Part shown: piece by piece, positions 1,342 through 3,301 of the stretch
Layout of the letters: every line of letters begins with the position of its first letter
How positions within the stretch are numbered: position 1 is the first letter of the stretch
Origin: Candidatus Zixiibacteriota bacterium
GTDB lineage: Bacteria; Zixibacteria; MSB-5A5; GN15; FEB-12
Direction: 5' to 3'
Length of the DNA: 64,000 nt
Assembly: GCA_024280215.1 (NCBI GenBank)
Contig: JAJRQO010000030.1
Location: forward strand, 1 to 64,000
Program-made: the position numbers and the translations under genes
The notes under the pieces: generated by a model
What the model was told of the DNA's origin: nothing
Seen by the model: only the letters and a program-made list of their open reading frames with translations
The model's database searches: none

Positions 1342-3301
1342 ATGCTAAAGGCATTGCGTTTACAATTAGGGGCTATTTTCTTTCTTTCTTTCTTTCTTTC
1401 TTTCTTTCTTTCTTTCTTTACCTGCTTATTCAGCAAATCTGCATTTAGTAGAATTTAACACAGATAATTACGATTCGTTACAAATTTATATCAACAAAAT
1501 TGAGGAAAAGGGGATTACGGCACGGCATATATTTCCACCCAATACGGTAATATTTGAAATGTATCAAAGAACTGATAAAGTTTTTGAAAAAGAAACTAAA
1601 ATATCACAAACTTATTCTTCACAAGCAGTTGGTTTGAACAAACTTAATTCAAACAATAATGTTCACATTGTTTTCAAAAGACTTATTGAATCTCAATCAG
1701 AACCGATTGATAAATCACCACCAACCCCCTTGTATGATTGTGTAAGTTATGGTACATCGTCTGATTCGCTAAATAAAGAAAATAATATAACAAGTGATAC
1801 TCAATCAATCTTAGCAGATGGTTTAACTGGGCAATATATGATAGGCAGTATAGCTGTCGGTATCTATCTTATTGAATCAACAGGTTCACAAGAAGATTGG
1901 TGGGCAGCAGCTGAACAAATAACTTTTAATGAAATAGTGGAAGGACTCGACTGGCTTTCAGAAGAAGCAAATCAGCGAGGAGTCAAAGTTGTCTGGGTCT
2001 ATGCTCCAGTTGAAAAAATTTCAACTACTTTAGAACCTATAATGGGGAATCATAAAACTTTTGATGATCCAGTTCCAAATTGGTTGTTTGATATTTTATC
2101 GGCACACAATGAACCAAGTAGTTGGGAAGGTGCTTACGGATTAGCAAATAAATTAAGAAAAGCTTATAAAACTAACTGGGCGGTTGAACTTGCTATAGTT
2201 ATGGATGAAAATGATGCTGACAATATGTTTGCGGATCAAAGATTTGGTTATTTTCACTCCCCAGAAAGCGGTGCTGAACATAGAGGTCCTCTTGTTGTTA
2301 TGACTTATAACAATGATGGATGGGGTGCAACTCAAATGAACAAAGTAACTGCTCATGAAGTTGGTCATGTTTTTGGAGCTTCTGATGAATATGCTAATAG
2401 TAATTGTGATTGTGGGATTGGAAATAGCTATCTACAAACTATCAATGGAAATTGCGAAACTTGTAATTCAAATGCAATTGATTGTGTAATGAATGGAAAC
2501 TCAAACGTGGTTTGTAACTTTTCTTCTCATGAGTTTGGCTGGCGAGATACTGATGGAGATAATGTCGCAGATCCAATTGATCCGAATACTGGAGAATTTT
2601 GTTGGATTAACCCTGTAGTCCCAGGCGATTTGCTACAAATATATGATGTTGGAGGTCTTTTTACTAATACGATTTCAGTAACAGAGGATATGTTAGTGGG
2701 AGCAAATTTGGATGTAATTTTATGGGATGGCTCCACATATGATAATTTAACAACATATCCTGGATTTTACAGTTTTTCAAAAAATGGAGGTCCTAATTGG
2801 ACTGAGATATTAAATTTATCTGGGTCTTCAACTCCAACTATTTCTAATCATAATTATAATCTTGACATAGTTAGTTATAAAAATGATGACCCTATATATG
2901 TTAGACATACAATATATGATTCAGTTGGAAGTATTTATAGCCGACCACAGTTTGACGAAATGAAAAATTCTCAATCAACAATAAATTCTGATATTTCGAG
3001 TTACACTGATGGAATCTATACATCAAAAGTTTTCTCGTGGGCACCTTATGGTGGTGTTAGTAATACTTCGACCTTGCAATTTATCAACTATATTTGTGGT
3101 GATATTGATAATAGTGGTAGTGTTGATGTTTCGGATATGACATACCTTACTTCATATATGTTTGAAAGTGGTACTGCTCCTGTACACATGGCTTCTGCAG
3201 ATATTGTGTGTAATGGTGATATTGATATTTCTGATTTAATCTATTTAGTAGCGTATATGTTTCAGGGAGGTCCAGCACCTGAATGTTGTCATAGTTTGTA
3301 A
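1342..3301 (+). CDS. Secreted zinc metallopeptidase, out of frame at a TTTC repeat (phase-variable candidate)
   Basis: The start is the ATG at 1342, preceded by GAGGAGGTAA. From there translation enters ten TTTC units (1377-1416) and stops at 1456-1458 after 38 codons. The peptidase frame is open from within the repeat to 3301. It is one repeat unit out of register: loss of one unit, or gain of two, would give a 651-residue protein with a signal peptide of FLSF repeats ending LPAYSA. In that numbering the zinc site HEVGHVFGASDE is at 337-348 (HExxHxxGxxD, a metzincin-type motif with Asp as likely third ligand). A pair of dockerin-like repeats occupies about 585-651. The internal ATG at 1559 has no Shine-Dalgarno site and would give a leaderless 580-residue product. 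The substrate is unknown. A fixed frameshift or a miscounted repeat in assembly are alternatives to phase variation. Confidence 0.8.
1377..1419 (+). repeat. Tetranucleotide microsatellite (TTTC)10 in a signal peptide
   Basis: Ten uninterrupted TTTC units plus a partial TTT lie inside the signal-peptide codons of the metallopeptidase. Three units (12 bp) encode the hydrophobic tetrapeptide FLSF, and no frame of the repeat contains a stop. Changes by three units alter only the length of the hydrophobic core; other changes switch the reading frame. This is the arrangement of contingency loci in Haemophilus and Neisseria. Confidence 0.9.

Follow-up and report, generated by a model that had tools for sequence, protein, structure and literature searches.

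A gene for a secreted zinc peptidase carries a perfect TTTC repeat among the codons of its signal peptide and is probably a slipped-strand contingency locus of translational type, of the kind represented by the opa genes of Neisseria, caught in the OFF state at ten units (n = 10). The gene lies near the beginning of the window, i.e., the whole stretch of 64,000 nucleotides analysed here, which starts at the first base of contig C36 in a Zixibacteria genome of 3.03 Mb and 42 contigs (G000). Slipped-strand mispairing would alter the number of units in (TTTC)n, so that any n divisible by 3 would yield an exported enzyme of ~650 aa and any other n a peptide of ~30-40 aa; starting from n = 10, the exported enzyme would result if one unit were lost or two were added, as in the standard model of such loci (PMC2651432, PMC3960869, PMC13183285). 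In the living population n presumably changes, the enzyme being made at n = 9 or 12. Phase variation by slippage with the gene in the OFF state had been proposed in a sequence-only reading of the same DNA; it remains the best reading and is partly supported, the support coming from selection at the codon level, from the differing number of units in a paralog and from a second out-of-frame tract.

The tract occupies positions 1377-1419 of the plus strand and consists of TTTC x 10 plus TTT (43 bp, 100% perfect, 10.75 units), encoding FLSF repeats in every frame and forming the hydrophobic core of the signal peptide. Directly 3′ of the stop codon of an upstream lipoprotein gene lies the Shine-Dalgarno region AGAGGAGGTAAC (1330-1341, plus strand, assigned from sequence) with a strong AGGAGG, followed by the ATG at 1342, which sits 13 nt past that stop and 35 nt upstream of the TTTC array. 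At 10 units, translation from this ATG covers 1342-1458 and gives 38 aa before the TAA at 1456-1458, while no stop interrupts the peptidase frame between 1370 and its terminal stop codon, which ends at 3301, with 626 open codons after the tract. Both the ten units within signal-peptide codons and the placement of the ATG in a frame adjacent to that of the peptidase, as described in the sequence-only reading, were thus confirmed by ORF reading. An alternative start with its own signal peptide in the peptidase frame was considered and excluded by the in-frame TAG at 1367-1369 together with the lack of any ATG, GTG or TTG before 1559. When the unit number was varied by script, 6, 9 and 12 units gave products of 647, 651 and 655 aa, and 5, 7, 8, 10, 11, 13 and 14 units gave 28-42 aa; the earlier statement that removing one unit or adding two restores the frame holds with 651 aa at 9 and 655 aa at 12. 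Its view of the tract as a core extended by FLSF per three units holds likewise, the hydrophobic stretch comprising 7, 11, 15, 19 and 23 residues at 3, 6, 9, 12 and 15 units; steps of three units, which stay in frame, might tune export, as that reading proposed. In the peptidase frame the signal peptide ends with PAYSA (1421-1435, plus strand). The alignment with relatives (PAFG/K in L008 and SSFA/R in L009) points to cleavage at PAYS/A (~1432/1433), not after LPAYSA as had been suggested. Signal peptides of the relatives comprise ~20 residues and carry no repeat; given this length, 6 or 9 units look like the most ordinary variants for the window gene.

The peptidase is probably the second gene of a two-gene unit cotranscribed with the small lipoprotein gene (924-1328, plus strand), whose probable start is at ~984 (MKRFIFLTCIISLLFGMGC, with a lipobox) and whose product has a weak CarbopepD_reg-like match (Pfam CarbopepD_reg_2, E = 0.005, below the cut-off). 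A similar small gene stands directly 5′ of the peptidase in most Zixibacteria relatives read and also 5′ of the paralog described below. Past the tract, the protein is composed of a propeptide-like domain, a catalytic domain, beta domains and a C-terminal dockerin, the domain limits being approximate (mean pLDDT 66). The N-terminal domain with beta-alpha-beta-beta-alpha-beta topology (1436-1640, plus strand) was modelled by AF2 with low to moderate confidence and is under purifying selection, as judged from the dN/dS over the first 55 codons given below. The catalytic zinc-peptidase domain (1844-2536, plus strand) contains the motif HEVGHVFGASDE (HExxHxxGxxD) at ~2354-2389, and among 12 aligned relatives H312, E313, H316, D322 and E323 are invariant and G319 nearly so. 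The dockerin type I-like domain with the stop codon occupies 3101-3301 (plus strand) and was recognized by the family profile, which matches solved dockerins at E = 2e-8, and by Pfam Dockerin_1, where the window protein alone scores just under the threshold (E = 0.001, 19.7 vs cut-off 22.9). Matches to peptidase families all fall under the curated cut-offs: 21 bits vs 27 for Reprolysin_5, 20 vs 110.8 for M6 and 15 vs 300 for snapalysin. Metzincin-like families with Asp as the third ligand (snapalysin M7, M6 and reprolysin-like) share with the window protein the order HExxHxxGxxD then E, whereas the latter differs from them in these below-threshold matches and in the addition of the N-terminal propeptide-like domain, the beta domains and the dockerin. 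A Foldseek search with the model (mean pLDDT 66) returned weak matches to the glycopeptidases Amuc_1438 and OgpA and to ADAM10, taken here as support for no more than a zincin-type domain.

A period-4 run of this length is expected by chance about 1e-16 times in 3.03 Mb. The survey of repeats covered ~1.22 Mb (~40% of the genome) read as stretches and the remainder by a few pattern searches. The search for other tetranucleotide tracts recommended in the sequence-only reading showed that the window genome as a whole has a single run of (TTTC)5 or longer and that the next longest tetranucleotide run within the ~40% is 18 bp. Among 133 Zixibacteria genomes searched, none of the other 132 has (TTTC)5 or longer, and four copies of the opa-like repeat CTCTT are absent from all 133. 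Since the orthologs read in relatives have ordinary signal peptides and no tract, the switch appears to be confined to the window lineage. Elsewhere in the window genome CTGAAA x 7 is found in an open frame of 446 codons, encoding TETETE (L136:10250-10291, G000:C27) and remaining in frame whatever the unit number. Poly-G runs of 10 or more are present in 74 of 133 Zixibacteria genomes; a phylum-wide poly-G contingency system was considered and rejected, as the 5′-coding pattern was seen at 5 of ~26 loci vs 17% of random positions, i.e., without excess, and the 30 loci read showed no enrichment of poly-G/C runs at gene starts. G131, G129, G132, G022 and G015 have many or very long runs of this kind, some of them at contig ends and possibly artefacts.

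A second out-of-frame tract in the window genome is a poly-C of 12 in a minus-strand lipoprotein gene, just past the lipobox (G000:C42:62522-62533, L125:2522-2533). It lies 79 nt after the ATG (MKKTLIALQLLALTALLISC-SSDSPTSPPP); with 12 C, 31 aa are read before the frame breaks, and 10 or 13 C would give 355 or 356 aa. No other G/C run in the sampled ~40% exceeds 8, and no other poly-G/C genome-wide reaches 10. Relatives of this lineage-specific lipoprotein were not found in 60 related genomes. With two unrelated tracts, each breaking the frame of an exported protein just past its export signal, a single chance expansion becomes less likely. Homopolymers of such a length (12) are classic sites of sequencing errors, and the poly-C tract is taken here as no more than supportive evidence for switching.

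Traces of selection were sought through a paralogous lipoprotein-peptidase pair in the same genome (L107:789-1740, G000:C21 about 119130-120080), where the peptidase keeps the gene start and the dockerin and residues 110-553, including the catalytic region, are gone. At the homologous place the paralog has two TTTC units and is also out of frame. Two units vs 10.75 at the same position mean that the unit number has changed, and this difference between two paralogs, the sole indication of unit-number variation, may be taken as a hint. In the peptidase frame, dN/dS between the window gene and the paralog is 0.17 over 97 codons (dS 0.98) and 0.09 over the first 55 codons (dS 0.71), and in the other two frames about 1 or more. 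The low ratio in the peptidase frame indicates that this frame was translated most of the time since the duplication, in at least one copy and probably in both; polarising the changes with L008 left too few resolvable sites. A neutral simulation over 626 codons gave a probability of no stop of 0.06 at 0.03 substitutions/site and about 0.01 at 0.05, so that any death of the gene would have been very recent. Further downstream disruption, by which the sequence-only reading would have recognized a dead gene, was looked for and none was found in the window copy with its 626 open codons. Judged from these comparisons, the window peptidase is not an old pseudogene; it would have been functional until very recently or may still be so in part of the population.

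The main rival of switching is a recent death, in which a dispensable peptidase was lost through growth of the TTTC tract and the frameshift is heading to fixation. The history of the family in the phylum speaks for such an outcome. Profile search detected the family in 11 of 133 Zixibacteria genomes, and 8 of its 13 copies are broken, mostly by ordinary nonsense or frameshift mutations: the window copy by the repeat frame, its paralog, devoid of the catalytic region, by deletion, and the others by TAA in G014, TAG and TAA in G010, TGA in G031, TAG in copy 1 and a frameshift in copy 2 of G061, and a frameshift in G130 (loci L094, L095, L099, L101, L103 and L105). Five copies, in G044, G022, G062, G126 and G096, are intact. 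The gene for a neighbouring reprolysin-type secreted peptidase is broken in 0 of 39 rows, about 3 of more than 100 copies are broken for a neighbouring prolyl oligopeptidase, and none of about 35 relatives of the peptidase outside the phylum is broken. With the window genome left aside, the difference between the peptidase and the reprolysin-type neighbour persists (6/11 vs 0/39 broken, Fisher P about 3e-5). Moreover, two congeners, G001 and G003, have the conserved reprolysin but lack the peptidase gene beside it. In G003, the prolyl oligopeptidase gene beside reprolysin is split by a frameshift (L151:5410-5464, G003:C28). The excess of broken copies over the neighbouring gene and the absence from two congeners suggest that loss of the enzyme has been favoured or tolerated repeatedly, which raises the probability of a recent death. 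Repeated loss would also fit a secreted product so costly that switching it reversibly would be advantageous. Against a recent death stand the lack of any other lesion in 626 codons, the strong codon-level constraint, the revertible type of the lesion and the perfect tract of 10.75 units, which is unneeded for simple loss and unlikely to be its by-product. On balance, we regard a recent pseudogene as an improbable, albeit serious, explanation.

Less probable still is a constant low expression at 10 units by +1 ribosomal slippage on UUU_C, which would make the locus a translational, not a genetic, switch or simply a leaky OFF state. The shift required from 10 units is indeed +1, the ATG frame has three UUU followed by C, and bacterial ribosomes are reported to undergo +1 shifts especially readily at UUU_Ynn (PMC5009743); owing to this context the OFF state may leak. 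Nevertheless, one UUU_C would be enough, so that ten units require another reason, the tract is conserved in no relative, and the search for a conserved RNA element revealed neither an Rfam match in the window nor stable folding of the RNA around the tract (z = 0.68). No better does an assembly or sequencing miscount fare, with a true number of 9 (or 12) always in frame: the sequence is a MAG, PCR and some long-read chemistries are prone to errors at short tandem repeats, and the poly-C(12) is likewise out of frame, but 43 bp is within the span of ordinary short reads, the other 44 long ORFs of the window look intact, making a general assembly error unlikely, and a mixed count would itself be an expected sign of phase variation.

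The case for a contingency locus draws on a unique perfect 43-bp tract placed right after a strong Shine-Dalgarno site and ATG. Weighing against it are the single assembled state, which is OFF, the finding that 6 of the 11 copies outside the window genome have been disrupted by point nonsense mutations or frameshifts with no repeat involved, and the circumstance that homopolymer or short-repeat length in a MAG may be off by one unit. As a broader and tentative proposal, to which we give somewhat less than even credence, the phylum might keep slippage switches (the TTTC peptidase and the poly-C surface lipoprotein) that toggle costly exported public-good proteins, the frequent irreversible loss in sister genera being what the same selection would produce where no switch exists.

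Most known cases of slippage-driven phase variation come from host-adapted bacteria, and Zixibacteria are an uncultured candidate phylum that, to our knowledge, is not regarded as host-associated. A literature search, which was not exhaustive, found no described phase variation in Zixibacteria. A clear opa-like locus in this group would place phase variation in an environmental, dockerin-rich phylum, with a secreted degradative enzyme, and not a surface antigen, as its target, and would make a question of public goods testable: whether exported costly enzymes are bet-hedged by reversible mutation, permanent loss being the alternative. Phase variation in H. influenzae is mediated mainly by tetranucleotide repeats close to the start codon, and lic1A and mod share with the window gene a perfect tetranucleotide tract by the translational start and a three-way frame switch (PMC2651432). 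This set is nearer to the window locus than opa in the length of the unit and in where the repeat lies with respect to the start codon, although H. influenzae has 12-14 tetranucleotide loci per genome (PMC2651432) and the window genome one found in the ~40% surveyed. The closest precedent is nonetheless provided by the opa genes of Neisseria with pentamers in the signal peptide: in both cases a non-triplet unit lies within signal-sequence codons and changes in unit number shift the frame (PMC13183285, PMC3960869). Most opa genes are out of frame at any time, few being in frame per isolate, and 6.6% carry a second frameshift past the repeats (PMC13183285). The two systems differ in that opa combines a CTCTT unit with an outer-membrane adhesin encoded at 9-12 loci, whereas the window offers a TTTC unit, a dockerin metallopeptidase and one locus with a unit count from one assembly.
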